A stretch of 64,000 nt of DNA from the NCBI RefSeq assembly GCF_000161935.1, contig NZ_GG698805.1, positions 116,673 through 180,672 of the forward strand. The letters run 5' to 3'. Below, piece after piece: positions 1,268-32,590 of the stretch (positions are counted from its first letter, which is position 1; the number at the start of each line of letters is the position of its first letter). The DNA is from Limosilactobacillus coleohominis 101-4-CHN (GTDB lineage: Bacteria > Bacillota > Bacilli > Lactobacillales > Lactobacillaceae). The translations under genes and the position numbers were made by a program. The notes below the pieces were generated by a model. It saw only the letters and a list, made by a program, of their open reading frames with translations, did not search any database and had not been told where the DNA came from.

Positions 1268-4200
1268 ATGCTCTCAAAAAATAATTTACGGTTGCTGGAT
1301 GAAAAAAATGCCCAGCAACATCAACGGTTCGGTTTACGGAAACTGACGATTGGGGTTGCATCTGTCCTTTTAGGAACCACTTTTATGATTGGAACGGCAC
1401 ATGCAGCGGTTAATCAGTCATCAACACAGACAGCTACACCTGTCGCACAGCAGGTTCAACCAACATCAACTACAGATGATCAAATGATCAATCATGACAA
1501 CGGTTTATCTAAAAATGATCATCAACTGGGGACAACTACGCTCCAAACGACTGCCGCTCGACCAGCAACCGTGCAGGCAGTTACAGAAAACAAGACGCAA
1601 GATGTGACAACGCCAACATTTTCTGGAATGACTAATTGGGAACCAAATAATACTGCTAAAAAGTGGACGGGGAATGCAGCTGATGCCCAATATAAGGCCG
1701 GCGACCAATCAACAATTAACTATGTAATTCAAAGCTGGGGTGGGACAAATGTTGCCAACTCTGCTGACTATCAAGGAACTAGCAAATACTTAATCATGAT
1801 TCCAGCAGGCTTTGATACGCAAACTCTCATACCAAACCGTAGTGATGCTGCTTTAGGTTACCAACTGCAAAACCTGGGTTTGGTTGGCCCAAATGGTGAG
1901 CGGACGTTTATGCTGACATTAGCACAGACGCCAAGCTATGGTGCACCCTTGAATATTTCTGCGATCATTAGTCCATTAGCGACGGCGGGCGGAGCATACA
2001 CCTTATACAATCAGTGGTCGCCATTATTAATGCCCCTTAACGACCATATGAAGGCCACCGGTGAAAGTGGTGCTGGAGGCGGTACTGGCACAATTACACT
2101 GAGAAATGGGACTACTTATACGTATATTCGTGATTTAACAAGCTTTAATAATGCTCAATGGTGGGATAATAATTCCAAGCCAGCCTATATAATCGTACCC
2201 GGAGCACAACAACTAGCTAAAGGTAATTACAAGGTTACTGGTGTTAAGTCGAATCAAGTCGATGCGACTCAAACCGGCCAGGCGGGGTATGAAGAAATTG
2301 ACCCAACTATTCAAATTACCGGGGCGGTTTAAAATGGCGATTACGTTGATTTTCACCTCGGTATTCCTTACCATGATGAGCAAACTGGCGCAACAAAATA
2401 TGTTACTTATGACCATAATTTGGCTAAAGAATTTAAGGTTGCCAATGTTGGAACTGTTTATAACATGGGCGATTACTACCGGTTAGTCTTTGACAACCAA
2501 CTTGGCTTGCTTAATAGCCCAACCTTTACCCTCCAATTGAAGTGGGGTGCTAATGGTCAGCAGGCTTCTTTAAATAATTGGCAATCAAATTATGTTTATC
2601 AAACAACTACTGATCCAGATAAGGATCACACCCAATTTAAGTACACACCAACTAATGACGTTACCATTAACGGCCAAACGATGGCCAGCGGCTTTACCGT
2701 CAATGGGCAGTACATTTATACTGCGCAACCAATTGGGGTTGGTAACACACAAATCGGTGCTGGGACCTCCTATTCCACTAACCGGACGTGGAATCAGAAG
2801 GGTGATGTGCGAATCAACACTCAGTGGAATAACGTTCAAAATGCCAGCCTCTCAACCAAGGATTTAGGTGACGAATTTGACATTCGGACAACCATTACTA
2901 AGGATCCAACTGGACAGATTAATTTTACCTTTACCAGCGCCAATGATTTAGAAAAGGCAATTGAAAAGTCAGTTGCAGCGAATGACCAGCAGTCGTTGGC
3001 AAATGAAGTCGTTAATGATGGGCAAACCTACGTCAAGATGAACAGTAAGGCTGGTGAAAAACCAAAAATTAAGGCGACAGTTACAATGACGGTCACCACT
3101 GACGCAAAAAATCCAAATCAGGAAACAGCGGTTTGGCATGTTAAATTAACCAACTTAGAACCAGAAAAGAATCAGAAGATTGTTTTGAAGGGTTCAGTAC
3201 CAGTCGTCACAGTTTCTGCCAATAACTTTACCATGCCAGATGGGATTACTTCCTATGATCAAGATATGGCAGCAGCCAAAACGGTAGCAACAGGTACGTA
3301 TAATGGTGCGAAAACGAATAATACAGCTTTGATGAAGACTCTGCAGACTCTTCCGGTCGCCTTAACTCAATTTGTTTCATATCAAAATGGTCAACCCAAG
3401 GATTACTCTGGACAATTTGGGGCACCATGGACTGCTGGAATTGCTTATGATGGCAACAACACCGTTGATGGTGGAGGCTCGGCAGCCGACCTCGTCACCA
3501 ATACACTCAGTTTCAAAGATATTGATTCAGGTCAGGCCGTGGCCAATGATGTTTCATACCAAGGAGCGACTGGCTCGACGATTAAGTTCGAAGGTGGGCA
3601 AGCTGTTTACGATGGCCTGAAAGGGTATCATTTTGTAAAAGCAGTCAGTGTGCACAATGGTCAAGAAACGGTCTTAACAAACTTTGATCCTGATAAACTA
3701 GCGGCCTTTAGTTTTGGAACTGCTGGCAAGAGTCAACCACATGAATTCATTATTTACGTTCAAAAAGACCAACCGGTTCAACAAACGGCGAGTGTTACTG
3801 AGGTTATTTACTATAAGTTTGGTAGTAAGAGTGGTCAAGATGCCAGTCCGTCATTTAAGAAGACTGTTAACTATACTAAGACTGGTGATGGAGATTGGCA
3901 GGCTGATGGTAACTTTACTAAGGTTGTTTCGCCGATCATCACAGGTTACACCGCTAACTACGATCACATTGATGCACCAAAGCCAACTGATTTGAAAGAC
4001 GGCGCACAAGAAACTGATACGTACTATGTTATTTACTCAGCTAATGAGCAGAAAGCTGAAATCAAGTATGTTGATGATACGACTGGGAAGACTTTAAACA
4101 CAGATCGCGCCACTGGTTCATATAATTCACTAATCAACTTTAAGAACGATCCCGATCAACAAATTGCGGACTACCAAAAACAACACTATATTTTGGTCAG

Positions 4201-5499
4201 CAACGATTTCAATAATAGTCCAAAGTATCAAGCAGATAACCAGAAAAATAGTTTCACGGTTCATTTGAAACATGATCTTCAGAAGGTTACTAAGACGACC
4301 ACCAAGACCCGGACGATCAATTACTTCTTGGCGAATGGCCAATCTGCAGCTCATTCAGTCGAACAAAAGGTAATATTTACGGGAACTGCTCAACACGACT
4401 TGGTTACTAACCACACCGGTGATTACGCATGGAAGGTGACTACCGGGGATGCCAACTTTAAAGCAGTAACATCGCCGAAGATTGCTGGCTACCATTTTTC
4501 AACTGTTGAGAGTTCTACTCCTGATCGAGTTGACGGTCAGAACGTTCGTGCAATGGTGATGACGCCAAGCTCAGATGATGTTGGAGTAACTGTCTATTAT
4601 GCCAAAAATCAGCAGGCCAATTTAAACTTTGTCGATGATGAGACGGGGAATTTAATCCACCCATCCATCGCGGTTAATGGCGAGACTGGCAAACCCTCTT
4701 TGGCAACTTTACGGATGCTAATCAGAGTTTCACGATTCACTTTACCCATGCCCATGTATTGTTAAGTGCTCAACATCAGCGGACGGTGACAGAAACGGTT
4801 AACTACCAAGACCAAAAGGGAAATCAATTAGCAACGCCGCACAAAATGACATTGACCTTTAATGGTACTGGCTACCGTGACCTTGTCACAAATCAAAATG
4901 TCATTAGCGGCTGGAAACTTGCTAACGGTGAAGAGGATAGCGGTAGTTTTGCGAGTGTTGGTAATCCACAAATCAAGGGTTACCACGTCGTAGCGGCAAC
5001 CGATGATCAAGGCAACGATGTTTTAGATACCACTACTAACCAGGTTAAGGCGCAAACCGGGATCACACATACTTCACCAGATATTCAGGTACTGGTGACC
5101 TATGCTGCCGATCCGCGACCGACTCAGCCAACTAAACCTTCAGACCCCGTTCATCCAACTGAACCAACCAAGCCAGTTCAACCGACGAAACCGGTAGAAC
5201 CAACGCGGCCAGCTCAGCCAATCCAGCCCACTGAACCAACTCGACCAATTGCTACTGAACATCCTAAGGAAACGCAACCAGTGATTGTCCATGCTCAAGG
5301 AACACTAGCTGTCACATCCCATCAGAATGTGGTCCAGCACGATTCTGCTCAGCAGAAGAATTCGGCTGCAAAGACGAAAGCGACATTGAACCGCCTGCCG
5401 CAAACGGGGAATAGTAATCCAGTAGCGATTATTGGCTTAGGAATTGCCTCGTTGTTCGGAACATTAGGTTTCGCAAGTCGAAAACGTTCAACAAAATAA
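1268..5499 (+). pseudogene. Mucus-binding (MucBP) LPXTG surface protein, broken by a stop and a deletion
   Basis: A cell-wall-anchored adhesin, about 1,400 residues if intact. It starts with a YSIRK-type signal peptide (RFGLRKLTIG, ending GTAHA). A non-repetitive N-terminal region follows, then MucBP modules of the kind YVDDTTGKTL...T..INY. The C-terminus has a Pro-Thr-rich wall-spanning repeat (PTKP/PTEP units, about 5105-5280) and LPQTG with a hydrophobic tail and RKRSTK. Two lesions break it. The first is an in-frame TAA at 2330-2332, with the same frame reading on as NGDYVDFHLG. The second is a frame change near 4690-4705. At the second site the module is about 25-30 residues shorter than its upstream neighbour, so this looks like a deletion rather than a one-base slip. 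Sortase anchoring would be lost unless there is readthrough. Confidence 0.88.
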
Positions 5500-5646
5500 T
5501 TTCCTCAATAGGAAAAGTCACGAACGTGAGATAAGAAAAATGTGAATCAATTTGGTTGATGTTATCAAGGTTAATTAATGATATTTGTAATTATTTGATG
5601 GCAAAATTAAAAATTGATTTATTATTCAAATTGCCATATGATAGAC

Positions 5647-5676
5647 AAAACACGCTTTTTAACGTGTTTTCTTTTG
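5647..5676 (+). terminator. Rho-independent terminator downstream of the adhesin
   Basis: AAAACACG and CGTGTTTT pair around an 8-base loop, followed by CTTTTG. It lies about 150 bp after the adhesin stop and only about 20 bp before the histidine kinase start. Confidence 0.6.
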
Positions 5677-5695: not shown

Positions 5696-6880
5696 ATGGA
5701 TGATAAAGTAACTCATCGAAAAATTGAACTTGAAATTTTACGGATGATCCGCTGGTTCTTCTTTTGCTGGATCTGGATGTTTGCTTCAATCATTAACAGT
5801 TTATCGGCTTTACGTGGCCCCAGTATAAATAAGTAGATTGTGCCATTAATCCTTATTTTTGGTCTCATTTTAATGATGCCTTACTTGGCCAAATGGTTGC
5901 CGGCTGAAATTCTGTTGATTGCTCAAGCGGTAGTAATTCTATGGCTAGGTTCAACCATGATTGACGAAAGTCAAATTATTTTTGAAATGGCATGTTTGCC
6001 GGTCCTCCTCTTTCAGGAATTAACGGTATTGCGTAACTTTAAGTATCCACCAGTAGTAACTATTTTGTATGCTATTCCATTCTTTACTGGTCATAAGGGT
6101 TTGGATATTTGGCTTTTACTGCTAGAAGCAGTTCTGACCATTGTAGTCCTGACTTATGCGGCCTATTACAGTGTCTATCGCCGTTTTTATCAAGCTGAAG
6201 AGTTAACACAAACCAACCATAAATTAAACCAGGCCAATGCCAAGATTGCGGAATTAACTTCGCAACGGGTGCGACAGGAAATTGCACGTGATTTACATGA
6301 TACGTTAACCCAAGATATTGTGGGGATTAACATGCAATTAGCGGTAGTTAAGCATTTGGCTGATCAGCAGGATTATCCGAAAATGCGTCAAATGCTGGAA
6401 CGGACAGAAGGAATGACATCATCAGCAATTAAAGAATCCCGTCAGTTAATCCAACAATACCGGAAGGCAGCGGAAGATCAACCACAGCGGTCGTTGAAAC
6501 AGGCGATTGTGCGGTTAATTAACGATATGCGGGAGAATTACCAGTTGCAAACAAAACTGCAATTTACGCAGGATTTGTTAATCGAAAATGAAAAACTGCA
6601 TGATATTAGTCAAGTCGTTAGGGAAGCCTTGATGAATGTGGTTAAACACGGTCGTACTACACAAGCGGCAGTTGAAATTCACCATGATCAGAAATGGTTG
6701 ACAATTTTGATTATTGATCACGGTCGACGTTTTGTCCCACCGACAAAATTAACGAATCACTTTGGATTGAAAAATATGAATGAACGAGCCGCTAAACACG
6801 GTGGTCAAGTCACGGTTGAATCTCTTAACGATGGAGTTAAGGTCGTGGCCCGGTTTAAACTTGAGGAGGAAACTTTATGA
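5696..6880 (+). pseudogene. NarL-family sensor histidine kinase, interrupted by TAG
   Basis: A membrane sensor kinase partnered with the response regulator that begins inside its stop codon. From the ATG at 5696 the frame encodes a transmembrane N-terminus (IRWFFFCWIWMFASII) and then hits TAG at 5834-5836 after 46 codons. The same frame continues without another stop to 6880. It gives further membrane helices, a dimerisation helix with the phospho-acceptor motif ARDLHDTLTQD (HisKA_3 type), and a HATPase domain (VREALMNVVKHG, then GLKNMNERA). Translation could restart at the GTG or ATG after the TAG, but the first helix would be lost. CAG or AAG would each give TAG by one substitution. The neighbouring regulator is also damaged, so the system is probably inactive. 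Confidence 0.85.
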
Positions 6881-7501
6881 AACACACAATCATGATCGTT
6901 GATGATCATCCCATTGTTCGGGAGGGACTCAAACAGGTTATCGAAAGTTATGATGATTTAGCAATTGTTGCGATGGCCTCGGATGGTGAGGAGGCCCTGA
7001 GAAAACTAGATGAATTAGATAGTTTCCCAGAATTGGTGATTGTTGATTTATTGATGCCCAAGATGGATGGAGGATCTTTAATCGACCAGTTAGTCGGTAA
7101 GACTGAAATCATGATTTTATCAACGGAGATTGACCCGCAAATTGCACGGCAAGTAGTTAAGAAGGGAATTCGTGGTTACCTATTAAAGAATGAAGATCCC
7201 TACAAGATTGCGGACAGCATTGAAGATATTCTCCGGGATCCAAACTACATCGCGATCAGTCGGGAAGTTTTGTCATCAGTACTGAAAGATGAAGAACACG
7301 GTGGTGACGTCGAACTTTCCGCCCAACAGATTAAATTGCTGAAGATGATTGCGGATGGTAAAACAAATGCTGAAATTGCGGAAAAACTTTTTTGTCACCA
7401 CTCGGACTGTCAAAAATTACTTATCCTCCGTTTATGAATTGCTAAAGGTGCATAATCGAGCGCAAGCGATTGCGGTTGCAGTAAAAAAGGGTCTGATTTA
7501 A
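6877..7501 (+). pseudogene. LuxR-type response regulator, frameshifted in its HTH
   Basis: The partner of the upstream kinase; the start overlaps its stop (ATGA). The receiver domain is intact: MIVDDHP at the N-terminus, phospho-acceptor Asp in VDLLMPKMDG at about residue 56, and a Lys near residue 107. The C-terminal LuxR/NarL helix-turn-helix begins (LSAQQIKLLKMIADGKTNAE) but changes frame in a run of six T at about 7388-7393. The frame after removing one T continues as VTTRTVKNYLSSVYELLKVH to a stop at 7499-7501, which is the expected recognition helix and end of a roughly 207-residue regulator. As written the product is 186 residues with a scrambled end. A one-base homopolymer insertion could be a real mutation or a read error. 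Confidence 0.87.
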
Positions 7502-10758: not shown

Positions 10759-10824
10759 GTAGTCAGTAATGTTGATAGCAGTTGATAAATGACTGTAGTT
10801 AAACAAAGAAAGGAAGCTCTAATC

Positions 10825-11868
10825 ATGAAGAATGCGATTTTAGCTCAAGCTGGCGAAATGAAGATTGTTGATTCACCAAAGCCAACCATTCAAAAGGATG
10901 ACGACGTGATTTTAAAGGTCGTCCGGGCCTGTGTTTGTGGATCTGACCTGTGGAATTTCCGTGGTATTAACAAAGTCGAACCAAATTCGGAAAACTCTGG
11001 GCACGAAGCCTTAGGAATTGTTGAAGAAGTTGGTGATGCCATTACCACCGTTAAGCCAGGCGACTTTGTAATTGCACCATTTACCCACGGTTGTGGACAT
11101 TGTGCAGCTTGACTTGCTGGTTTTGACGGCGTTTGCCAAGACCATAGTAATAACTTCTCTACTGGGACACAAGCGGAATACATTCGTTTCCAACACGGTC
11201 AATGGGCATTGGTTAAGGTTCCTGGTCAACCAAGCGATTACAGTGAGGGCATGCTGAAATCTCTATTAACACTCGCCGATGTCATGGCGACTGGTTACCA
11301 TGCTGCACGGGTTGCCAATGTTCAACCTGGTGACACGGTGGTTGTCATGGGTGACGGGGCTGTTGGCCTTTCCGCAATTATTGCGGCTAAGCTCCGTGGT
11401 GCTAGTCGAATTATTTCCACTAGTCGGCACGAAGATCGTCATCAGTTAGCGGTTGAATTTGGTGCTACTGATAATGTTGCTTCGCGTGGTGACGATGCCG
11501 TTAAGGAAATCATGGATCTTACTAATGGGAGCGGCGCAGATGCTGTTCTTGAATGTGTCGGGACAGAACAATCAACTGAAACGGCAATGAAGGTTGCTCG
11601 TCCAGGGGCTGCCGTTGGTCGAGTTGGATTACCGCACATGCCAGCAATGGATATGACGCAATCCTTCTATAACAACACCACGATTGCGGGTGGCCCTGCT
11701 TCAGTTACGACCTATGATAAGCAAATCTTATTAAAGGCAGTGCTGGATGGTAAGATTAATCCAGGTAAGGTCTTCACGAAGACCTTTACCCTTGACCAAA
11801 TTAATGATGCTTACCAAGAAATGGCGGACCGGAAAGTCATCAAGTCATACGTTAAAGTTAGTGACTAA
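10825..11868 (+). pseudogene. Zinc-dependent alcohol dehydrogenase, interrupted by TGA at a zinc Cys
   Basis: A medium-chain dehydrogenase/reductase that would oxidise or reduce alcohols with NAD(P). The 347-codon frame has the catalytic-zinc residues (VCGSDLW, GHEALG), the structural-zinc loop and a Rossmann segment (VVMGDGAVGLSAI). An in-frame TGA at 11110-11112 falls in the structural-zinc loop, CGHCAA-stop-LAGFDGVC. The C-x2-C-x2-C-x7-C pattern expects the third Cys there. The frame is otherwise open to 11868. A Cys codon becomes TGA by one base. Selenocysteine would be an alternative reading of TGA, but I see no clear SECIS hairpin and lactobacilli are not known for it. The start at 10825 has an AAAGGAAG site. 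A strong terminator follows. Confidence 0.88.
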
Positions 11869-14276: not shown

Positions 14277-15625
14277 TTAATTATGTTTCAAATCTTCAAG
14301 GAAATCTAAATGTTTTTGTACGAACTTTGGATCGACATCAATGAAGAAGTAAGCGGCCGCAGATGCAAGGGCAACGAAAGCACCAAGTAATAGTGTTTTA
14401 GCAGTAAAGTTTGTAACCATATAGCAGGAAACTAACAGAGCAAATGCAGGGATTAAATATTTCCCGGGTAATGAAAAACCATGGTTAGGAAATTCATTCG
14501 AATGTTTAAACTTAATTACCGCGAGGATTGATGGAACATACTGGATAAAGGAAGCTAAGACAGTACAGTTAACCAGGAAGAGGTAACTTTGGGTACAGAA
14601 GAGGAGACAAATAATAGCGGTTACCCTGATTCCAGTGACTGGAGCATCGTGCTGGTTCTTTTTTCCAAAAACCTTTGGAATCATACCGTGTTCATTGGCG
14701 AGCGAAGCTACTAATGACGGTGTATTAAATGATGCACTAAAGGCCACGCCAAAGATACTAATAAGCATTCCACAGATAATGAGGTAAAAGCCCCATTTAC
14801 CAACGCCCATCCCAAAGGTATTTGCTAACGGGGTGGAAAAACCACCAAGTTTTTGACCGGCAATGCCGACGGCGACAAGCATCATTAAGGCATCAAGAAT
14901 GGTAACACTAACCATGACTGCAATGAGGACCCGTGGAATATTCTTTTCTGGATTATTCATTTGCTTGGCCGCAATCGGTAAAAATGAAAAGCCCGTAAAT
15001 AGGTAGAAAATTGGGGTAAAGGCGGCACCAAAGTGTTTCATAAACGGTAAGGGCCCCTTGAGTGCCGCAGTTGGAATAACCGGATTGAAGTGCGTAACGT
15101 GGATACAAAACGCACCAATTAAAATAAAGACTAGGAGGGTTAAAATTTTGGCCGCTGCGGAAATATTGTTAACGGCTTTTACTAAACTGCGACCAAAATA
15201 ATTAATGATCGAAATAGTAAGATGAGGACGATTACCTATCCAGCGTAGACCCATCGGTTATCAAAAACTGGTAAGAAACTTTTGAGAGTTGTTAGCAGCG
15301 CCACAATTTCCGCAGATAGGGTACAACAACCGAGAAACCAAGTAAAAATTCCCAATTCGTATCCGGTAAAACGACCAAATGCATTGTAGCCGTAAAACCA
15401 TGCAGCGCCAGATCCTTTAAAGCGGCTGGCTAAATCAGCGTAGCAAAGCGCAATTAACGAAACGGTAACTGCTGTACACAAGAGGACCCCGACTGAAGCA
15501 AGGTTCATATCACGATAAATAACCGCGGGTAACAGGAATGTTCCTGAACCGATAACACCATTAATACCAAGAAAGTAGATCGACATAAAGGACAGCTTTT
15601 TTGGTGTTGATTGAGATTTCATCAT
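14277..15625 (-). pseudogene. APC-superfamily amino-acid permease, frameshifted
   Basis: A roughly 12-helix amino-acid transporter of about 448 residues if intact. The N-terminal piece (15625 down to 15236) carries the APC signature FLGINGVIGSGTFLLP and helices 1-3. It ends at TAG after RWVYAG. The C-terminal piece (to 14277) resumes in another frame with INYFGRSLVKAVNNISAAAK. Between about 15200 and 15245, one reading gives a hydrophobic helix (VIVLILLF) in the first frame. This suggests at least two small changes: one at the TAG and a net one-base loss near 15205. Adding one base at GGA-TAG would also join the frames, but gives a less helix-like segment. The start has an AGAGGTG site. Substrate unknown. 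Confidence 0.85.
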
Positions 15626-15690
15626 CAAAACACCTCTTATTTAAAATTAGACACCCCCATTATAGTCATCAAATATTGATTCGTTAATTA

Positions 15691-15727
15691 AAAACCAGGA
15701 TCGCCGAGAGCGCGATCCTGGTTTTTA
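15691..15727. terminator. Bidirectional terminator between folT and the permease gene
   Basis: AAAACCAGGATCGC and GCGATCCTGGTTTT form a perfect stem around a 7-base loop, with T runs on both strands. It ends the folT transcript on the minus strand. Confidence 0.85.
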
Positions 15728-15728: not shown

Positions 15729-16289
15729 TTATTTTGGTAATTGGTTTAATCGAGTCCGGCTAAAGGCGCGTAGAACAATTAGAACGATTAGACTTTCTAT
15801 TGGCCAAGTGATGACTTCCTTTGGTAATCGAATTGCGAGTAACGCAGTTAAGGTCCGGCTTGTTGAACCAGCATTCAGGCTCATGATGTAGAGCCAGAGT
15901 GTTGTAAAAACTACGTTCGTAATCAAAATCTGGAAGAATTCATAAACAAATACGCGTTGCCAGGTTAGCTTTTGCTGATAAAGAAACATTCCGGCAATCA
16001 CGCCTGAAATAAAGGCCGAAAAAGTAAAACCGGGAAAGAAGAGACTACCGGTATTAAGAACGGTATTACTGATCAAATCATTAATGATCATTACCATTCC
16101 GCCCATCCAAGGGCCCAAACAATAGCCAACTAATGCGGTTGCAATAAAGCCCAGCCCGATTTTTAAAACTGCTGGGTCACCAACTGATAGTTTGCCGAGA
16201 ATTACTTCCAAAGCCGTTAACATTGCGGCAAGTGTTAAATGACGAGTGGTCCACCGGGGACCAGAAAATGATAGAATTGACATGGTCAT
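15729..16289 (-). CDS. folT: Folate-specific S-component of an ECF transporter
   Basis: The substrate-binding membrane subunit for folate uptake. It works with a shared ECF energising module (EcfT and two ATPases) that is not in this window. The 186-residue, roughly six-helix protein has the S-component features LTLAAMLTALEVILGKLS at the start and GLGFIATALVGYCLGPW. The FolT assignment comes from these segments together with the candidate tetrahydrofolate riboswitch directly upstream. Two starts are possible: ATG at 16289, 4 bases after GGAGG, or ATG at 16283 with a better 10-base spacing. The gene is single, with its own promoter and a strong terminator. Confidence 0.8.
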   Translation of the reverse strand: MTMSILSFSGPRWTTRHLTLAAMLTALEVILGKLSVGDPAVLKIGLGFIATALVGYCLGPWMGGMVMIINDLISNTVLNTGSLFFPGFTFSAFISGVIAGMFLYQQKLTWQRVFVYEFFQILITNVVFTTLWLYIMSLNAGSTSRTLTALLAIRLPKEVITWPIESLIVLIVLRAFSRTRLNQLPK

Positions 16290-16312: not shown

Positions 16313-16427
16313 GTTAGGGAACACATTGACTGGTCGAGTGGTGAATGCGGAACCACAAGGCGACCAAAGCCTTCTTCCACCGTTCACATTCCGTTCCGGT
16401 GGACAGTAACCCAGTCGTTCCTACCCC
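16313..16427 (-). promoter_or_regulatory. Candidate tetrahydrofolate (THF) riboswitch upstream of folT
   Basis: Read on the minus strand, the leader folds into a closed domain. Its base is TAGGAAC-GACTGG pairing with CCAGTC and TTCCCTA. Inside lie GGGTTACTG, a hairpin arm CCACC...GGTGG holding GGAATGTG, then AGAAGGC and a GGTTCCGCATTC segment. The order and several short motifs resemble the THF-I riboswitch found before folT genes (GTAG, GCGTTAAGTG, GGATGT, ACGAAGCG, GCATCC). I matched it by eye only. Its position between promoter and ribosome site fits folate feedback on uptake. Confidence 0.55.
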
Positions 16428-16437
16428 AACACCCGTT

Positions 16438-18716: not shown

Positions 18717-18878
18717 AAAAATGGACCATGATTAATTGTAAATTTGGCCGCTGCCATAGCCCGTGTTTTTTGCAAAGTAGCACCGAAATAGTTTGCCTGG
18801 GGGGGCAGTTCATTGATGATCTTGTTAGTGGTAAACTAAGGATAGTTGTCAGCTAGTATCATCGAGGAGATTAGAAGA

Positions 18879-20900
18879 ATGAAACGACAAGCTTACATGA
18901 GAAAATTACTGGCGGGAACCGCTAGTTTCTTGATTGGTTCCAGTTGTGCCGTGGTGCTTAGTCTGCACAATGCGTAGGCTGCTACCACCACTGCACCAGA
19001 TTCAGACACATCTCAACAGAATGCGCAGACAGGGGTTGAGCATGACCATTCAGTAACAATTGATGACCATTCTGGGGTAAGGTTAGCGGCACCGCAAGAT
19101 AATAACCTGACTGCAACCAACCAAAATAGCTCCTGGGTACTGGCACATCCTGGCATGCATGAACACGCTAGTGTTGATAATAACGGCGGTTACGACTCGG
19201 CTGTGTGGGGCAAAGTTGATGTTAATGATTGGACAACCTCTGCTTACCATGATGATAATAACCCGAACGTTATTTTAAAAATTACCGGCTATAAAGGGAC
19301 TGTTCAATTGGATGACCAGGGACGGGCTAAGGACTTGAACGTGATTATTCCTAATAGCCAAGGCTTTATTAATGCGGGAATTATTAAGCCTGGTCAAGAG
19401 GTCGGGATAGATAGTTTTAGTTCACTAACGGTTGATAATGATGGTACGCCCGTTGGACTGCTGAACGTCTTAGATAATACCTATATGACCGATCCTCAAG
19501 CCGGCCACTTGAATACTTTTGCTGTCAGCAAAACAGGCAATGCAAAGATCGTCTACCTCGGGCATGCCATCGGTTATAATCAAACATCTAATTCGGAAAT
19601 TGCTGGCATGATGCCGGATTTTGCAGAGCGAAGGTTTAATCACGCCCTGATTGATGTTGCCAATGTTGACACGCGAAACGTGACGGATCTGTACTGCGCG
19701 TTTGAGGGATTCCAGTCTGAAAAGACGGCGCTAGATTTATCCGGGTGGGGCGTTTCTCACGTGACTAATTTCTCTGATGCCTTCAGCGGCGGTTCCGGCG
19801 GACTTCTCATCGCTGGACTAAACTTGTCAAACTGGAATCTAATACAGGGTGTTAAGGGTATCAGTTATCATAGCAATAACCTTTTTAATCGGAGTTCTGC
19901 TTTTTTAGATATTGGCGAGTTACGGCTGGCCAACATGAAGTTCCCACAGACAACAATTACTATCGATGATGATAATGGCAAGCAGATCCAGATCCACGGT
20001 GGAATCGTACCTGCCATTTGGCAATTTGTTAACAATGGTGATGGTAATACGCTGGGGCAAACTAAGTTGATTGATTTGTCGGGTGACGACTTGACCGGCT
20101 TAACGTATGATCTGCTGGCGGCCATCAACCGGCAAAATGAAATTACCCCTATTTTTGTTCAGGGAGCCAAGTTGATTTTGAATAATGTGTCTAATGTGCC
20201 GCCATTGTCGCCAGACGCCAAAATTAAGGCAGTTCAGGTTCCGAATGGTGATAGTATCTTTGACTATATGACTGCACAGTGGCCGCATACGGGAATTACA
20301 TTTGAGACAAATAATGATCATCTGTTACAAAGCTTGGGTTCTGCCAACTATCGGGAGATGAAAGCGTTGAGGGGAACGTCTCAGCGGACGATTAACTTTA
20401 ACTTCCCGGCTAGCTTCATCAAGGCACATCCGGAAATAGCTAAGCAAGTCGTGCAAAAAATAGATACCTACCAACGGCATGCCATCATTGATAACGACTC
20501 GAAGAAAATTGTTGGGTACACCGACTGGCAGAATATCGGAAAGGAGCAGCAATTTGCCGTGGTTACGGTTCCGCAGATTTCTGGCTACCAAGCATCTATG
20601 GCTACAGTAGCGGCTCAACCGGCTCAAGTTGGCGACCAGATCGTGGTGAACGTTGATTATCAACCAACTGAGCAGGCAGATGACGAGCGGCAAGCAATAG
20701 TCCAAAATAGTTCAGCGCAGCCGCTGCACCGTGTTAATGAAAGCAAGCAGGATGCGCTGCCTTCTACAACTGTGCCACAGGGTCGACGCTCCATGCTGCC
20801 GCAAACCGGATCTAACGACGGAACATCGGTAGCTGTTCTTGGTGTGGCGGCCATGCTGACACTGCTAGGCCTGAGTGGCAAAAAACAGAAAAAACAATAA
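18879..20900 (+). pseudogene. BspA-like LPXTG surface protein, TAG at the signal-peptide end
   Basis: A wall-anchored surface protein of about 673 codons. The gene begins at ATG 18879 (GAGGAG upstream) with a signal peptide MKRQAYMRKLLAGTASFLIG. It reads an in-frame TAG at 18975-18977 right after SLHNA, that is at the predicted cleavage site. The same frame runs open to 20900. It contains DUF285/BspA-type repeats (VDTRNVTDLYCAF..., LDLSGWGVSHVTNFSDAF, LNLSNWNL), a MucBP-like C-terminal module (VPQISGYQAS) and the LPQTG anchor with a KKQKKQ tail. CAG to TAG is the simplest origin. As written, no anchored protein can be exported: translation from the first later start (19155) would have no signal peptide. 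Confidence 0.88.
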
Positions 20901-20938
20901 GGATAAGTAGGCGTGAAAAACGTTTAGTATCTTTGAAG

Positions 20939-20988
20939 AGTGGTCGTTAACGGCTGAGCTTGCCAGCTGTTAACGATCACTTTTTTTC
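20939..20988 (+). terminator. Rho-independent terminator after the BspA-like gene
   Basis: AGTGGTCGTTAAC pairs with GTTAACGATCACT (one G-U pair), with an inner GCT/AGC pair, followed by seven T. Confidence 0.85.
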
Positions 20989-21072
20989 GTTAATGGACAA
21001 TTGTTCAGTGGGAAAATGAATAATTTTTGTAATTCGTTTTATCATCAACAATGATGAGACTTTAATGATCAC

Positions 21073-21102
21073 TTGAAAAGTCGCCCACTCTGGGTTTATA
21101 CT
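21073..21102 (+). promoter_or_regulatory. Promoter of the second LPXTG gene
   Basis: TTGAAA and TATACT are 18 bp apart, about 40 bp before the ATG at 21144. Confidence 0.6.
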
Positions 21103-21143
21103 AAAAATGAAAAATAAATATTAATAAAAGGGTGGCGTGGTTA

Positions 21144-22462
21144 ATGAATTGTAATAATTATGGTGCTAAGCAGCGTTTTGGATTGCGAAAGCTCAGTATC
21201 GGTATTGTTTCAGTTATGCTGGGGTTGACAATGTATGGTGTCAATACGGCTCATGCTGATGGGAACCCAAGCAATATTACTACTAATGTCAATACCAACC
21301 GGATTGTTAGTCAGCCTGCATAAACTAATAAAGTGGTTCTGCCGGTCATTAGTCAAGCGGGGAAACAGTCATCGGCTGAAACTTTGGCTACAACCCAAAC
21401 CAGCCAATCGTTAGCAACTGATAATCAGCAAAATCAACTACCAGACTGGCAGCACATTGTTGCGGGCAAGGATTTCGTTAACCAGGATGGTCAGGTAATG
21501 CATGCTAAGAATGACAATAATGTTACCGTTAATTCTCATTATCAATTTCGGTTGACTTATCCTGATGGGCAAGTTAAGGATTTATATAACAAGACTATTG
21601 CAACCACTGTTTACTGTTACCAAAACCCATCTGGAGACTTTGTGTACTATACAAAAGATGGCGACTGGGCGATTTGATGGATGCTTATAATGACGTTGAC
21701 TCGCCTAACGGTAAAACAGCAGTGACAGTTCCCCGGATTGATTTAGCTGGTCCGAGTTATGATGGCTATTACGCAACGAGTGAAAACAGGCTTCACTATG
21801 ATAAGGCTAAGAAAGTCTGGTACTTGCCTGAACAAAAAATGCGTGCTGAACAGTCAATCACAGACGGCGAGCTATTAAATAAGATGAATACGGAAAAGAA
21901 GACTGTTCAGCGGGTTATTCACTACCGTTATATTGATGGTTCGCAGGCGGCCGCTGATGTTACCCAGCCAGTCACGTTTACTCACCAGTGGGAAACCTGG
22001 TGGGGTTACGGAAATGGTACTATGTCTAATGACGACGGTTGGACACCGCAGCAGGGTTCTTATGTAGCAGTTATCAGCCCAGTCCTTGATGGGTACACGG
22101 CAGACAAGCTGACAGTGCCTCAGGCAACGGCCCGATTGAACCAGGGCGATCAGGTAGTCAACGTTACCTACACGAAGAATGCACCTGTAAAGCCTAATAA
22201 GCCTGCTCAGCCGGTCGTTAACAATGATGATAAGAATACCAAGTTACCAGCAGTTCCTGCGCAACACCTTGCTCAGTCCGGCCAACAGCATATTGTATCG
22301 ACGGCTGTTCCTGCTGCTAATTCAGCAGTGTCGCCAGTTGCTCGTCACCATCGTCAGCAGCTGCCACAAACGGGCAACCAGCATGAAGCATTGGCAGCCG
22401 TTGGCGTTCTGGGGATGGGCTTAACGGCTCTGCTGGCATTAGTTGCGAAAAAGCGCCAATAG
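21144..22462 (+). pseudogene. MucBP LPXTG surface protein with stop and frameshift
   Basis: A roughly 439-codon wall-anchored protein with two lesions. The YSIRK-type signal (KQRFGLRKLSIGIVSVMLGL, ending NTAHA) is intact. An in-frame TAA follows at 21321-21323 (codon 60). Near 21667-21669 the frame changes: restoring one G in TGGGC would join DGDW to GDLMDAYNDV, so a one-base loss in a G run is likely. The remainder has a MucBP module (VQRVIHYRYIDGSQAA, then VAVISPVLDGYTADKL), a Pro/Lys linker and LPQTG with a hydrophobic tail and KKRQ. Its position directly after another broken LPXTG gene suggests a degraded adhesin locus. The G-run lesion could be a read error; the TAA is less easily so. 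Confidence 0.87.
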
Positions 22463-22491
22463 GCTAGGCATTTAATCATTTTTTGATAATA

Positions 22492-22524
22492 AAATGGGAC
22501 CAATGAATGGTCCATTTTTGTTTT
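22492..22524 (+). terminator. Rho-independent terminator after the second LPXTG gene
   Basis: AATGG-ACCA and TGGTCCATT pair with one bulged G, followed by TTTTTGTTTT. Confidence 0.75.
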
Positions 22525-22573: not shown

Positions 22574-23212
22574 ATGAGCGGTAACTACCGGAGCGTGTTT
22601 GACATTATCGGTCCGATTATGGTCGGCCCCTCTAGTTCGCACACTGCAGGGGCAGTGGCGATTGGTAAGGCGGCGCGAGCAATCTTTCAAGAGCTACCTA
22701 AAAAGGTGACAGTTCACTATTATGAATCATTTGCGCAAACCCATCGGGGGCACGGAACCGATTTTGCGATCGCTGCTGGGATCATGGGCTTTCCACCGGA
22801 TGATGCCCGAGTTCCGATGGCACCAGAATTAGCTAAAAAAGCTGGAATTGATATTCGCTTTGTCGAAGAGCAGGGTCCTAGTCCCATTCAGCACCCGAAT
22901 ACTGCGATTCTAGATCTCTCCGATGGTGCACATCACAACACGCAGGTTGGTGGTTGTTCAGTTGGTGGCGGTGCGATTGAAATTCGCTCAATCAAAGTTC
23001 AAGGGGTTGAATTACATCCTACCGGTCCACTACCGATTGTGTTATATCTTGATCGGGATAAAAATAAACCGTTAGTGAATGGTCTTGCTAAGATGTTGGA
23101 CCGGAGTGCCAAACTAAAAAAACGGCAGACTAAGCTGGTTCATGATTGCGAGCTGTACGAATTTGACATGTTTAAGTATCTGAAACCGCAACAAATTGCC
23201 GAGCTGAAGTAA
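22574..23212 (+). CDS. sdaAB: L-serine dehydratase, beta subunit
   Basis: The small subunit of the iron-sulfur L-serine dehydratase, which deaminates L-serine to pyruvate and ammonia. The 212-residue protein has the family segment FDIIGPIMVGPSSSHTAGAV near the N-terminus and a C-terminal ACT-like part that is short here. AAAGGAGC lies before the ATG. The alpha subunit gene follows 40 bp later but carries a frameshift, so this subunit probably has no partner in this strain unless the lesion is a sequencing error. Confidence 0.9.
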   Translation: MSGNYRSVFDIIGPIMVGPSSSHTAGAVAIGKAARAIFQELPKKVTVHYYESFAQTHRGHGTDFAIAAGIMGFPPDDARVPMAPELAKKAGIDIRFVEEQGPSPIQHPNTAILDLSDGAHHNTQVGGCSVGGGAIEIRSIKVQGVELHPTGPLPIVLYLDRDKNKPLVNGLAKMLDRSAKLKKRQTKLVHDCELYEFDMFKYLKPQQIAELK

Positions 23213-23252
23213 AAGTTCAAGGGCATTGTTTGTCTAAAGTAGGAGCAATGTG

Positions 23253-24136
23253 ATGTTTGATAGTATTAAAGAAATGGTCGGTGCGGCCAACGAAAGTGGT
23301 AAGCCGTTGTCTGAGTTAGTGATTGAGACAGAAGTCGCAAATTCAGGTGTACCACGGACAGAAGTTTGGGATAAAATGAAGCGCAATTTAAATACGATGC
23401 GTCAAGCGGTAACGAAGGGTGAAACTGGCGAAGGAGTTCATTCACCAACGGGATTGACCGGTGGTGAAGCAGTTAAAATTCGTGAATACCGCAAGCATCA
23501 TCGGACCTTATCTGGAGATACGATGATGGGGGGGGCGGTTCAGGCTGCCATGGCGACCAGTGAAGTTAATGCATCGCTGGGCGTCATTTGTGCGACACAG
23601 ACAGCAGGATCAGCCGGAACCTTGCCGGGCGTAATTGAAGCATTACAGGAACGGCTCGATTTAGATGAAGCGGCTTTAATTCGGTTTTTATTTACCGCTG
23701 GGGGTCTCGGCTTGGTGATTGCTAACACGCCGGCATTGCCGGAGCAACTGGTGGGTGCCAAGCAGAAGTGGGGAGTGCATCAGCGATGGGGGCAGCTGCA
23801 GCTGTGGAAGCAGCGGGTGGCACTCCTCAGCAGAGCGCGGAGGCCCTTTCGATTGCCATTAGTAATTTACTTGGCTTAGTGTGCGATCCTATTGCGGGAC
23901 TTGTTGAGATTCCGTGTGTGAAGCGAAATGCGATTGGGACTGCTAATGCACTGGTTGCTGCCGATTTAGCCCTGGCCGGGTGCGTTAGTAAAATTCCTGC
24001 GGATGAGTGTATCATGGCGTTGGATAAGGTTGGTAAGCAAATGCCAACATCACTGCGCGAAACAGGGTTAGGTGGCCTAGCAGGCACCCCAACTGGTCAA
24101 GCAATTAAGGCTAAAATCTTTGGTCACGATGCTTAG
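23253..24136 (+). pseudogene. sdaAA: L-serine dehydratase, alpha subunit, frameshifted
   Basis: The catalytic [4Fe-4S] subunit. The N-terminal part (MFDSIKEMVGAANESGKP, then SPTGLTGGEAVK and TAGSAGTLPGVIEAL) is in frame to about 23735. There the frame must change: ANTPAL-PEQL as written should become an A-I-A-G-ATGGCQAEVGSASAMG reading, which needs one extra base between GCATT and GCCGG. The second frame then runs to 24136 and contains the cluster Cys residues (GGCQAEVG, VCDPIAGLVEIPC). The lesion is one missing base outside a long homopolymer. Start ATG 23253 has AGGAG 7 bases upstream. A DUF59 protein follows 12 bp after the stop. Confidence 0.88.
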
Positions 24137-24462: not shown

Positions 24463-24497
24463 AGGAGTTGGACGTAAAACGCCCAACTCCTTTTAAA
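24461..24497. terminator. Bidirectional terminator between convergent genes
   Basis: AAAGGAGTTGG and CCAACTCCTTTT form a perfect 11-bp stem. It overlaps the stop codons of both the DUF59 gene and the M20 peptidase gene. Confidence 0.85.
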
Positions 24498-25823
24498 GTT
24501 GCTGCAACACCCGATCTAGCAGGCTGACTGCTTGCACTGCGTCATTCAATTTAATGTTTTCGTTAGCACCGTGGGCTCGTGAATTAGCATTGCCAATCCC
24601 AAAGCCAAGTACGGGTAAACCTAAAAGGCGGCCGAAGGCATAGGCGGGACCGGCGCCGGCGCTATTCAAGACATATTCAACGCCATCAGCACCATAGATT
24701 GCCCTGGCGCTCTCGTTAACGAGTTTAACAAAAGGATGCTGAACATCGCTACGGTATCCTGGTTGGCCAACTAGATAGTTAACTTTAACATCCTCAAAGC
24801 CGTTTTTGGCGAGTTGCTTACGAACTAGGTCAGGAATTCTGGCTGGATCTTGACTAGGGGCCAAGCGGAAATCTAATTTAGCGGTGGCTAGTCGTGGCAA
24901 AACGGTTTTAACCCCGGCTTCTTGGTAGCCCGCGGTAATCCCTTCGATATTGATGGTGGGTTCATTAGCGAGGGCTTGCTTGGGTTTTGTCGCTAGAAGG
25001 GGCCGCGTTAACCCTTCTGCTTGTGCGACTTGTGTAGGATCAAAGGCTAGTTGCTCAACAAAGGCATTCTCAGCAGCAGTTAAAGCGGTGACGTCATCAT
25101 AAAGTCCTTCAATCTTAATTTGTCCAGTCATGTCGTCCCGGAGAGATGCTAACGCTTTGGTTAACCGCCATGGAGCTGATTCGGCGTAAGCAGCCTTGGA
25201 GGAGTGGAGATCAGCGTTAGCCGTTGTGACGCCTAATTCAATACAAGAGATGCCCTTGAGGCCACCAGTAATTGCTAATTGGCCAGCGGCGTTTTTGGCG
25301 CCTCCTTCCCAGATCACCGCGTCAGCTTGGAGTTGTTGCTGGTGGGCTTCGGTGTATTTGATTACGTGCCGACTGCCAATTTCTTCTTCACCTTCAACGT
25401 AGAATTTTACATTGACCGGTAAACCGCCGTGTTCTTGATAATACTTAAGCAGCGCGTGAGCCGGAAAATGAGCTCACCCTTATCATCGTCGACGCCACGG
25501 GCAAATAGGGTACCATCTTTGACAGTGGGGTTAAACGGATCTGTTGCCCATTGGTCAAGTGGTTATGCTGGTTGGGTATCATAGTGGTTGTAAAAAAGTA
25601 CTATCCGATCGCTGTTACCGTTAAAATCGGAGAAGATGACCGGGTTGCCACCTTGATCGGTCCACTTTTCAACGTGGTCCGCGCCTAATTGCTTAAATTG
25701 CTGAAAAATCCAGTTACTTGTTTCTGCAATACCGATATCTTGAGCAGCAATTGTTTTGAACCGTAAGAGATCACTGAAGTCTTGCCAATGGTTAAGAGTA
25801 TATTCTTGTAATGATTCTGTCAT
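24493..25823 (-). pseudogene. M20-family peptidase/deacylase, with stop and frameshift
   Basis: A metal-dependent peptidase of the M20 (ArgE/DapE/CPG2) family, about 443 codons. It starts MTESLQEYTLNHWQDF with GGAGG upstream. The metal motif FYNHYDTQPA is followed at once by TAA (25563-25565, where related proteins have Glu), and the frame continues [10 protein letters not shown]...[11 protein letters not shown] (second metal Asp). A one-base loss near 25453-25462 then shifts to [12 protein letters not shown]...GEEEIGS and the rest, ending at 24493. Both lesions are needed to explain the sequence, so the gene is inactive unless misassembled. It is the only gene behind a complete T-box leader. 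Confidence 0.88.
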
Positions 25824-25839
25824 GCTGGTTTCCTCCTTA

Positions 25840-26119
25840 AAATAAAAAAAGCCCCGCAAACTGCAGCTGCAATTTGCGGGACGTTGATAGACAACGTGTT
25901 ACCACCCGAATTTAAGACGACTTCACAATCGCCTTCTTACTGAGTACCCAAATGGAGACTCGGCCGCGTTAACGGGCGGACCCGTGCTTAGTTAATGATT
26001 CGCTAGGCAACAATTACCAGACCATCTTCGTTAAGGCTGGTTGACCGCTTTTCATCAACCGCGGCTTGCTGGGCAATCAGGCCATTAATTACTCTTCTGG
26101 AAAATTTAGGATTTAAATT
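25840..26119 (-). promoter_or_regulatory. T-box riboswitch upstream of the M20 peptidase
   Basis: On the minus strand the leader holds the T-box sequence GGGTGGTAACACG (near 25905), which base-pairs with uncharged tRNA. A strong terminator follows, CCCGCAAATTGCAG with CAGTTTGCGGG and seven T. A long stem I region lies upstream with an AGCAAGCC segment like the conserved AG bulge. T-boxes sense the charging of one tRNA. I could not fix the specifier codon by eye, so the amino acid is not assigned. Confidence 0.85.
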
Positions 26120-26626: not shown

Positions 26627-27317
26627 ATGGGAAAAACAAAGAAGTTTTCACTTATCATTACGGTTTTGGTAATTATCGTGGCGGCTTTGGCCGGTGTTCA
26701 AGCACATCAACGTCAGGTACGGGCGGCCAAGTACGTGGATAATCGGACCACCACGTTCTTCTTCCATGGTTGGGGAAGCAGTTACCGGGCAGAACGCCAA
26801 ATGGCAAATGGGGTGACTATGCTGAATCAGCAGTGAAGGCCGTCCAAAAGAAATACCAAATTAAAAATATTAACTTAGTGGGTCACTCGATGGGGAACAT
26901 TGCAATTATGTACTACTTGGTTAATAATGCTCAAAAGACTAACATGCCGACCGTTCGGCACCAAGTTGACATTGCCGGCCACTTTGATGGTGGGATTGGC
27001 TTTGGTTATAACAAGAAGACAACGCTGGATAGTCAAGGCAAACCATCCATTATGGAGAAGCACTATCGCGACTTCTTGCCACTTCGGAACACATATCCAA
27101 CAACATCGCTGGTGATCTGGATGATGGTTCCAAGTCAGATAGTCAAATTCCACTCAACTCAGCATTCTCTTTGAAATACTTAGTTGCTAACCGGGCTCGG
27201 TCTTACCAAGAAAAGACGATTCATGGCAAGATGGCCCAACACAGTAAATTACATGAAAACAAGCAAGTTGATAAGCTCTTAATTAACTTCTTGTGGGGAA
27301 AAGCACAAAATAATTAA
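26627..27317 (+). pseudogene. DUF915 alpha/beta hydrolase with internal deletions
   Basis: A paralogue of the surface hydrolases at 13406 and 40883. The N-terminus is present: an anchor (FSLIITVLVIIVAALAG) and the oxyanion segment FFFHGWGSSYRAERQMANG. The text then jumps to GDYAESAVKAVQKKY, skipping about 47 residues found in the paralogue at 40883, and the frame changes. The junction reads AAATGGCAAATGGGG, a short direct repeat that could have mediated the deletion. The nucleophile LVGHSMGNIA remains. A second small deletion near 27097-27105 shifts the frame again before GDLDDGSKSDSQ and the C-terminal His region SKLHENKQ. The last in-frame stop is at 27315. The promoter and terminator are intact. 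Confidence 0.87.
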
Positions 27318-29271: not shown

Positions 29272-29277
29272 ATTTAC

Positions 29278-29560
29278 TAACAAGTTAATTAAAAAACGAT
29301 TAGAAAGACGAGTAAATATTAACATTCGTTTAGTGAGCTAAGGATAGTGCAAACTTAGCCGACCCTGTAATATTGAAAAACCCTTTCCAAGTTGCTAACC
29401 CAAATGGTCACCAAAGTAGGCTTAGTCGTCTCCAGCACGTTACCGCTGGTTGAGTATGTTAGTACTCGAATGAAGTGGTCTAGTGCAAACTAGATAACTT
29501 GGGTGGCACCGCGGAAAGAAGCCTTTCGTCCCATGATTGCAGGGACGGAAGGCTTTTTAT
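29278..29560 (+). promoter_or_regulatory. T-box riboswitch controlling asnA
   Basis: The leader contains the T-box GGGTGGCACCGCGG at 29501. A terminator hairpin follows at 29521-29556, GCCTTTCGTCCC with GGGACGGAAGGC and TTTTTAT. Upstream is a stem I region of about 130 bases. An AAC triplet (an Asn codon) at 29379-29381 lies on the 3' side of stem I, where a specifier would be expected; I could not prove it by folding. With asnA downstream, control by uncharged tRNA-Asn is the natural reading. Confidence 0.9.
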
Positions 29561-30612: not shown

Positions 30613-30724
30613 ACCAGTGGTTGGGTGGTCGGGTTTGAATTTTTTATTAATAACAATGACTGCTAACGGTTTTGTCACAATTCCTACTTCACACTTTTAG
30701 TTAGCAGCATCGGAATAAATAAGC

Positions 30725-30780: not shown

Positions 30781-30862
30781 TGGTTGGTTAAACATTTGCC
30801 AACTGCAAAAATTAGAGTATAATGATAAAAAATTAAAAAAATCTAATTAAGTAGGTGGTGCT

Positions 30863-32206
30863 ATGTTTAGCAAAGTTGGACAACTAATCTTTCAAAATTA
30901 AGCGGTCGCGCAAACTGCTGATTTTACAATGGGCATTGAAATTGAAATGGACCGAATTGATAGTCAAGGAAATCTTAGTCAAGAACCCTATCCAGCTAGC
31001 ATTGGTGATGAAAAGACCAAACCATGGATGACCAATGACTTTTTGGAAGTGATGTCTGAAACGGTTACTCCAGCAGCCGATTATGCGCTGGAAGCGATGC
31101 ACTATCTCTACGCATTAAACACCACGCTCCGCAATGCGTTAGCGCCCGGAGAACTATTATGGCCTCTTTCAATGCCACCCCGGTTACCAAAGGATAAATC
31201 AAAGCTAGTGTTAGCGAAGATGGGCCCAAAAAAGGAAGCCTATTTACATGAATGGGCAAAACGACATGGCTATTCGCAAGGGACACCGTGTGGTGTTCAC
31301 ATTAATTTGAGTATTAAACCACACATTGTGGACTTAGTCCGCAAGCAGCTACCAGATCGGTTTCCAGATGAACGTTCCGCGATGAATTATCTGTATACGG
31401 TGGTGGCCCAAGGTTTTGTGCGCTATCGGTGGTTATTGACTTACTTATTTGGGGCGAGTCCGGTCGCGGAAGCTAATTATTTGGAACCCAATCAGAAACT
31501 AGCCCACCCGATGCGGAGTATGCGGCAAAGTTCGTACGGATTTGGAACTAAATTCCGCGGTGATTTTACTAATCTTGATCGCTATGTGGCCCGGATCGAA
31601 GAAGGAGTTAAGGAAGGAATCTTGACCTCGGATTATGAATTTCACGGTCCAGTCCGTTTTAAGGGTAACGCGGAGTTAAAACGGCTGCATAAAGAGGGAA
31701 TTAAGTATGTCGAATTGCGGATGCTTGACCTTGACCCAACCACGGCCGTCGGAGTAAAGACAGTCACGCTGCGCTTCATTCGGTTGCTTGCCAGCTACCT
31801 TATCATGCATCCAGCGATGCCAGAAAATGAAGTTGATGATGTCCTCAAACAAGCGGATGAGCGCAACCGGGTAGTGGCAGAAGAAGATCCACGGAAAAAG
31901 ACCAAGTATCAAGCAACAGCCTTGGCAATGATTAAGCGTTTGGCGCAGTATGCTAATCAAATTCAATTAGGCCCAGAATATACAGAAATCCTGGATGAGT
32001 TGGAAGACCGGATCTTGAATTCGCTGATGACTCCAAGTGGCCAGTTAATGAACTATGTTCAGGATGGCTCGCTGGAGGCGTACGCATTGCAACGGGCTAA
32101 GCGATACCAAGAGGCAGCGCTAGAAAGTCTTCATCCGTTCCATGGCTTTGAAGATGGTAAGATTTATACGACGAAAGAATTAAAAGCAGCGTTAGATGCA
32201 CTATAA
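30863..32206 (+). pseudogene. Glutamate--cysteine ligase with an early TAA
   Basis: GshA-type ligase, which joins glutamate and cysteine in the first step of glutathione synthesis. From ATG 30863 (GTAGGTGGTG upstream) the frame reads MFSKVGQLIFQN and then TAA at 30899-30901. It resumes in the same frame as AVAQTADFTMGIEIEMDRID. The catalytic start motif GIEIEMDR and the rest of the enzyme (for example GTPCGVHINLSI, YVELRMLDLDP) are intact to 32206. CAA or GAA to TAA is a single change. Restart at the ATG at 30929 would keep the GIEIEMDR motif but lose about 22 residues, and it has no clear ribosome site, so weak residual expression is possible. There is no fused GshB domain; the length fits a stand-alone GshA. 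Confidence 0.83.
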
Positions 32207-32210
32207 TCAG

Positions 32211-32245
32211 AAAGCGGCAGCCCAGTTTGGACCGCCGCTTTTTAC
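32211..32245 (+). terminator. Rho-independent terminator after the ligase gene
   Basis: AAGCGGC and GCCGCTT pair, with an inner CCCA/TGG pairing, followed by TTTTTA. Confidence 0.8.
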
Positions 32246-32590
32246 TATTCAAATAAAGCTTTTATTTCATCATCGGAAAGGTGAAATAAAAGCTTTATTT
32301 TTTGTTGTAATTGATCTTCGGGAATCCCTAACTGGCGTGTGATTGTGATCATTTGCTGGATAGCTTGGGTCTTTCCCTTTTTGATTCCTGATTCTTCACC
32401 GATTTGGATACCTTCTTGGCGTCCTTCTTCACGAATGTCTTCATCATGAAACATCATATGTGTTTTGTTATCCATATATTCATTCCTCCATCTGCGATTT
32501 TGACTGAGTTGGTGAATATAATTCCGTAGTTAATCGACATACTGATCATCTTGAACATCTTTATTATCTACGTAATGGAGGAAATTTTGG
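32245..32590 (-). pseudogene. C-terminal remnant of an Rpn-family (PD-(D/E)XK) nuclease
   Basis: Only the C-terminal part of an Rpn/transposase-like nuclease remains. In one minus-strand frame the text runs FLHYVDNKDVQDDQYVD, TAA (32530-32532), LRNYIHQLSQNRRWRNEYMD, then the charged repeat-like tail EEGRQEGIQIGEESG. Later codons end in KLLFHLSDDEIKALFE. The short intact frame 32245-32475 (76 codons) has a GGAGG site by chance or by reuse. The catalytic N-terminal domain is missing, and the remnant stops abruptly next to the end of the gene at 32599, which suggests a deletion. An intact relative lies at 36068. Confidence 0.7.
32251..32300. repeat. Perfect 19-bp inverted repeat at the Rpn remnant's 3' end
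   Basis: AAATAAAGCTTTTATTTCA (32251-32269) and its exact complement (32282-32300) enclose a 12-base loop. On the plus strand it is followed by six T, so it could add to termination of the ligase transcript. On the minus strand it codes the last residues of the remnant. Confidence 0.85.

Follow-up and report, generated by a model that had tools for sequence, protein, structure and literature searches.

In-frame stop codons within otherwise coding frames recall the described cases of suppressor tRNAs and stop reassignment, a TGA at a Cys position recalls the selenoproteins, and stops together with frameshifts and deletions make up the gene decay of L. ruminis and host-adapted lactobacilli. For L. 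ruminis ATCC 27782, 85 predicted pseudogenes are reported, 4.3% of the coding sequences (PMC3231920), which shows such a load to be not unusual among lactobacilli. Here we analyze a stretch of 64,000 nucleotides (the window) from Limosilactobacillus coleohominis 101-4-CHN, positions 116673-180672 of one contig (NZ_GG698805.1) in a genome assembly of 1,725,829 bases over 12 contigs, in which eight genes carry a stop codon inside their frame. These genes and several neighbours are very probably ordinary young pseudogenes, regionally clustered, and their sequences suggest lineage-specific gene loss, not a new reading of the genetic code.

With L. ruminis the locus shares the kinds of lesion and, by a script count made before curation, a similar proportion of broken genes (22 of 463 orthologues); here, however, the lesions are packed into a 28-kb segment, and the two figures come from unlike counting methods. 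Among the matches listed in a literature search on Limosilactobacillus pseudogenes, none concerns this case by its title. The likeness to suppressor tRNAs and reassigned stops is the interruption of otherwise coding frames, whereas here no such tRNA was found, all three stop codons are used normally and frame changes lie adjacent. As for the selenoproteins, one TGA is found at a Cys position, but no tRNA-Sec exceeds its family cut-off and the other seven stops are TAA or TAG. The eight interrupted genes, the first seven identified by Pfam, are the following.

1268..5499, plus strand: YSIRK/Muc_B2/LPXTG mucus-binding-type adhesin, predicted pseudogene; TAA at 2330..2332 and a frame change near 4.75 kb, domains split over three open reading frames (ORFs)
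5696..6880, plus strand: sensor histidine kinase (HisKA_3/HATPase_c), predicted pseudogene; TAG at 5834, codon 47 of 394
10789..11868, plus strand: zinc alcohol dehydrogenase, predicted pseudogene; TGA at 11110, a Cys position, codon 108 of 359
18879..20900, plus strand: LPXTG adhesin, predicted pseudogene; TAG at 18975, directly behind a signal-peptide-like start
21144..22462, plus strand: LPXTG adhesin with a YSIRK-like start, predicted pseudogene; TAA at 21321 and a frame change near 21.67 kb
24493..25894, minus strand: M20-family peptidase, predicted pseudogene; TAA at 25563 and two frameshifts
30863..32206, plus strand: GshA-type glutamate-cysteine ligase; TAA at 30899 (codon 13 of 447), the remainder open from an internal ATG at 30929
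32248..32592, minus strand: Rpn-like gene remnant lacking its 5' part; TAA at 32530, NCBIfam match under cut-off

All eight triplets listed by an earlier sequence-only reading of this DNA were found where it had placed them, six on the plus strand and those at 25563 and 32530 as TAA on the minus strand, and the coding frame on either side of each stop is seen in the translations. The nearest relative used for comparison is the genome of Candidatus Limosilactobacillus excrementigallinarum (G005; DNA identity ~91%), which the GshA protein search placed first among named relatives with 99% identity over the best segment, followed by L. frumenti (75%) and three Secundilactobacillus (64-65%). We take this nearest named relative to be a chicken-gut metagenome assembly. 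One of its contigs (C67) is collinear, with gaps, with window positions 4893-41822, the main blocks being ~89-92% identical. The alignment with orthologues that the earlier reading had proposed was carried out and gives a sense codon in this relative for five of its eight stops (5834, 11110, 25563, 30899 and 32530), as well as for a further one at 23210. Uninterrupted ORFs were found there for the kinase (394 aa), the alcohol dehydrogenase (359 aa), the M20 peptidase (466 aa), GshA (447 aa) and the Rpn-like gene (181 aa), the window copy of the last being a weak match to an Rpn-family nuclease/transposase model.

Regarding the frame beyond the stops, the claim that it stays open for hundreds of codons in most cases is generous towards three genes: after the stops at 21321, 25563 and 32530 a truncation or a change of frame follows within ~120 codons. 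The TAA and TAG stops had also been described as one change away from Gln, Glu or Lys codons; this is what the alignment gives at 25563, 30899 and 32530, but not at 5834, where the codon of the relative belongs to the Gln/Glu/Lys group and differs at two bases, in a region of 58% local identity. TGA 11110 aligns with a Cys position. The list of eight is genuine throughout, though incomplete, since about as many further lesions had been overlooked. Besides a ninth stop codon, at 23210, they comprise shifts of frame close to 4.75, 7.39, 15.24, 21.67, 23.72, 25.45 and 25.85 kb; at 26.6-27.3 kb, moreover, a DUF915 hydrolase is split into three pieces. These lesions add the following genes.

6877..7501, plus strand: LuxR-family response regulator beside the kinase, broken; frameshift near 7.39 kb
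14277..15628, minus strand: amino-acid permease, divided between two ORFs at a frame change near 15.24 kb; the two cover positions 1-117 and 129-404 of the Pfam profile
22574..23242, plus strand: L-serine dehydratase beta chain; TAA at 23210, codon 213 of 222
23250..24136, plus strand: L-serine dehydratase alpha chain, broken; frameshift near 23.72 kb
26627..27314, plus strand: DUF915 alpha/beta hydrolase, predicted pseudogene; three pieces in three frames, part lost

In the relative the response regulator (207 aa), the two serine dehydratase chains (222 and 294 aa) and the DUF915 hydrolase (286 aa) are uninterrupted ORFs too. Thus a frame disrupted by a stop, a frameshift or a deletion is paired with an uninterrupted orthologue in a close relative for five of the eight original stops plus the serine dehydratase alpha and beta chains, the response regulator and the DUF915 gene. 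The permease stretch, 14287-15721, has no counterpart at the corresponding place of the relative, where the flanking matches overlap by ~15 bases.

The age of the losses was approached through the ratio of nonsynonymous to synonymous changes (dN/dS, Nei-Gojobori) against the same relative. The values are 0.005 for the serine dehydratase beta chain, 0.014 for GshA, 0.020 for the alcohol dehydrogenase, 0.025 for the response regulator, 0.050 for the histidine kinase, 0.062 for the M20 peptidase, 0.101 for the serine dehydratase alpha chain (inflated by misaligned codons beside its frameshift) and 0.157 for the Rpn-like gene, to be compared with a median of 0.037 (quartiles 0.017 and 0.068) for 435 intact pairs. 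As six of the eight measured broken genes lie at or below 0.062, the losses look young, and, judging from these sequences, most of the measured genes are likely to have been under normal constraint until recently. The recent, parallel gene loss proposed by the sequence-only reading is in line with these low ratios, with the uninterrupted ORFs of the five informative genes and with the accompanying frameshifts. As to its mode, stops do contribute as proposed, but so do frameshifts and deletions, and the losses cluster in this segment.

To quantify the clustering, 1.264 Mb of the source genome (G000; window included) and 0.900 Mb of the relative were sampled and the ORFs of each searched in the other. 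Among 463 ORFs of the relative classified by script in the source genome (14 at stretch ends left out), 422 are intact, 22 broken, 12 differ by terminal stops only, 3 are partial and 4 have 50-90% coverage, while the reverse direction gives 442 intact, 8 broken, 6 terminal, 7 at 50-90% coverage and 1 partial among 464 (31 dropped). By script alone, broken orthologues amount to 7 of 23 at 4.9-33 kb of the window vs 15 of 440 elsewhere (p 3e-5), and after curation by hand to 9 of 24 vs 18 of 436 elsewhere in the sample (Fisher p 1.5e-6). Curation added GshA and the DUF915 gene within 4.9-33 kb, where one of the 15 orthologues scored as intact is a 3' fragment of the broken first adhesin. Outside this region two script calls were discarded, one being a start-site difference and the other a paralogue, together with two partial or short rows, and five partial or shortened genes were added. 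An alternative count with 17 broken genes elsewhere gives the same picture. The contrast drawn earlier with the last 12 kb of the window, said to be free of breaks, holds as well: 10 of the 11 orthologues classified at 51.9-63.0 kb are intact, and the eleventh differs solely by a stop at codon 4, which probably reflects another start site. Beyond the window, the source-genome sample contains several frameshifts that change a homopolymer run by one base, for which slippage, phase variation or error may be responsible.

Concerning the mechanism, the losses would have taken place after the split from Ca. L. excrementigallinarum, in the window lineage. Selection may have been relaxed on an accessory neighbourhood comprising mucus adhesins, a two-component system, a zinc alcohol dehydrogenase, a serine dehydratase, an M20 peptidase, a hydrolase and a glutamate-cysteine ligase, in which independent single-base stops, short frameshifts and deletions could then become fixed. 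Relaxed selection as the cause, the loss of function of each protein and the order of events are what we infer from this pattern. If so, the clustering represents a clear case of one neighbourhood shed together, and several accessory functions, including those of three surface adhesins, are predicted to be missing from the isolate. Gene decay of this kind is ordinary, and its main use here lies in annotation, since automatic calling yields truncated or split proteins.

Several points weigh against this interpretation. First, the three adhesins lack a usable orthologue: none spanning the 2330 stop was found by DNA search in 28 genomes (source genome included), and none across 18.75-22.5 kb, which holds the adhesins of 18975 and 21321, by DNA search in 5 genomes. 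As a protein, the 18975 adhesin matches 27 of 50 genus genomes (source genome included), with partial matches of at most 47% identity outside its own locus; for the 21321 adhesin, orthologues were searched at the DNA level. The first adhesin is covered in the relative at its 3' end alone, at a contig edge. Their frame continuity is nevertheless visible in the protein architecture, with signal peptide, Muc_B2 domains and LPXTG anchor split across the stop. Second, low dN/dS is equally expected of a gene still in use. Third, amino-acid changes on the window branch vs that of the relative are 31:8 in broken genes and 63:44 in intact ones (Fisher p 0.031), a figure in which 16 of the 31 come from the misaligned serine dehydratase alpha chain; with that gene set aside the counts are 15:7 (p 0.48), no clear rise, as would fit a very recent loss. 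Fourth, the clustering test is post hoc, because the region had been picked for its stops, although correction for ~60 windows of 28 kb (a rough count) leaves it significant. Finally, all data come from a single assembly of one strain, so that a consensus error may affect single sites.

Concerning the two adhesin genes at 18975 and 21321, the whole 3.8-kb stretch that contains them (18743-22507) is absent from the corresponding place of the relative, where the flanking matches lie one base apart.

Among the pseudogenes GshA is the most doubtful case, because translation might restart at ATG 30929. There is a minor but real chance that this gene alone is still functional by such a restart, its stop being tolerated without loss. 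Its dN/dS and a protein 98.4% identical to that of the relative are what a working enzyme would show, and the frame from 30929 matches the Pfam GshA model over cut-off from its first residues, as do, under their cut-offs, the NCBIfam GshA and GshAB models. On the other hand, a very recent loss would give the same picture, no obvious ribosome-binding site was seen upstream of the ATG (judged by eye, unscored), and the 22 codons lost are mostly alignable with L. frumenti and with the genus genome G007.

Clearly less probable, though not negligible, is that the stops and frameshifts are assembly or sequencing errors. Such errors would fit the fact that only one assembly is at hand and that several frameshifts alter a short homopolymer by one base. 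They would hardly be concentrated in this segment, however, with 51.9-63.0 kb nearly free of lesions; the well-aligned stops are substitutions in surroundings of 0.88-0.97 local identity (5834 excepted, 0.58), and amino-acid changes in the broken genes are not clearly raised once the serine dehydratase alpha chain is set aside.

Programmed on/off switching, in which adhesins and other surface traits would be controlled by contingency loci with repeat frameshifts and reversible stops, is very unlikely: three of the eight affected genes are indeed surface adhesins and some frameshifts lie in homopolymer runs, for the most part in other regions of the genome, but the well-aligned stops are substitutions without repeat slippage, enzymes and regulators are affected too, and several genes bear two or three lesions whose joint reversion is unlikely.

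As for the decoding of the stops, none of the 58 tRNA genes detected with RF00005, all typed by ARAGORN, has an anticodon reading UAA, UAG or UGA, a count from which tRNAs inside unassembled rRNA operons would escape; this suppressor-tRNA search had also been proposed by the earlier reading, which regarded readthrough as the more exotic option. The tRNA-Sec model gives nine weak matches, none over cut-off, whose places coincide with RF00005 tRNA genes, SelA, SelB and SECIS elements (selenocysteine insertion sequences) lying outside this search. Conserved genes end in TAA (307), TAG (98) and TGA (32), for 437 ends used of 442 intact genes, and a homologous stop is present in the relative for 424 of the 437. 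Readthrough, be it by suppressor tRNA, code reassignment or selenocysteine insertion, is hence the least probable account of all, for although the coding frame persists past each stop, most measured genes are otherwise well preserved and the sole TGA sits at the Cys position of the alcohol dehydrogenase, it would require the decoding of three different stop codons that all terminate conserved genes, and it could not bridge the second lesions, including frame changes, of the adhesins at 2330 and 21321, of the M20 and Rpn-like genes and of the partners in the two-component system and the serine dehydratase.

Within the gene-loss interpretation, a side lead concerns the type of mutation. The five well-aligned window stops (11110, 23210, 25563, 30899 and 32530) are all one-step G:C>T:A changes, which raised the idea of a mutator. 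In the two lineages together, this type makes up 10 of 14 one-step nonsense changes, five of five in the window and five of nine outside; against the 20% share of the spectrum at fourfold degenerate sites this excess has P 4e-5 for all and 0.018 outside the window, and against flat rates 3.5e-4 and 0.05, respectively. The 14 changes were picked by hand. Left out were 5834 (two changes, identity 0.58), a stop in a 76%-identical paralogue, stops in non-homologous or scrambled alignments, two left unconfirmed (beside the 50.5 kb frameshift and at codon 32 of a 737-aa gene), three in the first 32 codons of a 455-aa gene (attributed to a start-site difference) and others among the initial 30 or final 8 codons; 30899, although at codon 13, was kept in view of the sense codon that L. 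frumenti and G007 carry at this position. Also omitted was a stop in a heavily decayed 147-aa gene, whose inclusion gives five of ten outside the window (P 0.031).

With the MutY model TIGR01084, the one model used, no match was found in the source genome at E<=1e-3, and no genome among 14 of the genus has one exceeding the cut-off; 8 of these 14 contain a lower-scoring relative that may be endonuclease III. Fpg is over cut-off in all 14. Across the Lactobacillales, MutY is over cut-off in 107 of 118 genomes, and the 11 without it belong to one family, 3 to this genus, 7 to genus g13 and 1 to genus g15. It is accordingly conceivable, if rather improbable, that the Limosilactobacillus clade lost MutY and kept Fpg, and that unrepaired 8-oxoguanine would bias the death of accessory genes to G:C>T:A stops. 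The nonsense lean to G:C>T:A and the missing MutY together remain a weakly supported side lead.

A strong mutator finds no support in the long-term tests. Transitions account for 64% of the 14,647 differences at fourfold sites and G:C>T:A is not dominant, far from the transition/transversion ratio of 0.10-0.12 reported for a mutY deletion of S. pneumoniae (PMC11136922). The excess in polarised or asymmetry tests is small at most: outgroup-polarised G:C>T:A changes number 53 in the window lineage vs 33 in the relative (p 0.045), and by codon position 25 vs 12 and 34 vs 16, in each case with the stops left in. A polarisation-free asymmetry at fourfold sites over 435 genes is 1598 vs 1461 (p 0.014), or 1424 vs 1333 (p 0.087) without the window genes, and positions 1+2 show none (596 vs 576, p 0.58). 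A Secundilactobacillus control was too divergent and too small for use, and multi-copy elements for polarising young changes were too few (11 pairs, the longest 876 bases at 89%). Judged by titles and abstract openings, no literature on MutY loss in lactobacilli was found, which is no proof of its being unpublished. If true, a clade-wide natural loss of MutY would be a standing experiment on how the mutation spectrum shapes gene decay, and, should closely related strains bear it out, the type of pseudogene that a clade gathers would be tied to the absence of a repair gene.

Outside the range of the reported stops, one more pair of disrupted genes is present in the window, each of which is a single ORF in the relative.

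49681..51490, plus strand: NAD-dependent deacylase with an internal deletion, and efflux-type transporter of the major facilitator superfamily with a frameshift

It should be noted as well that two regulatory RNAs lie among these genes. A tetrahydrofolate riboswitch at 16337-16430, minus strand, is found ahead of a component of an energy-coupling factor (ECF) transporter at 15729-16289, and a T-box leader at 29290-29536 overlaps an AsnA-type gene at its listed start (29503).

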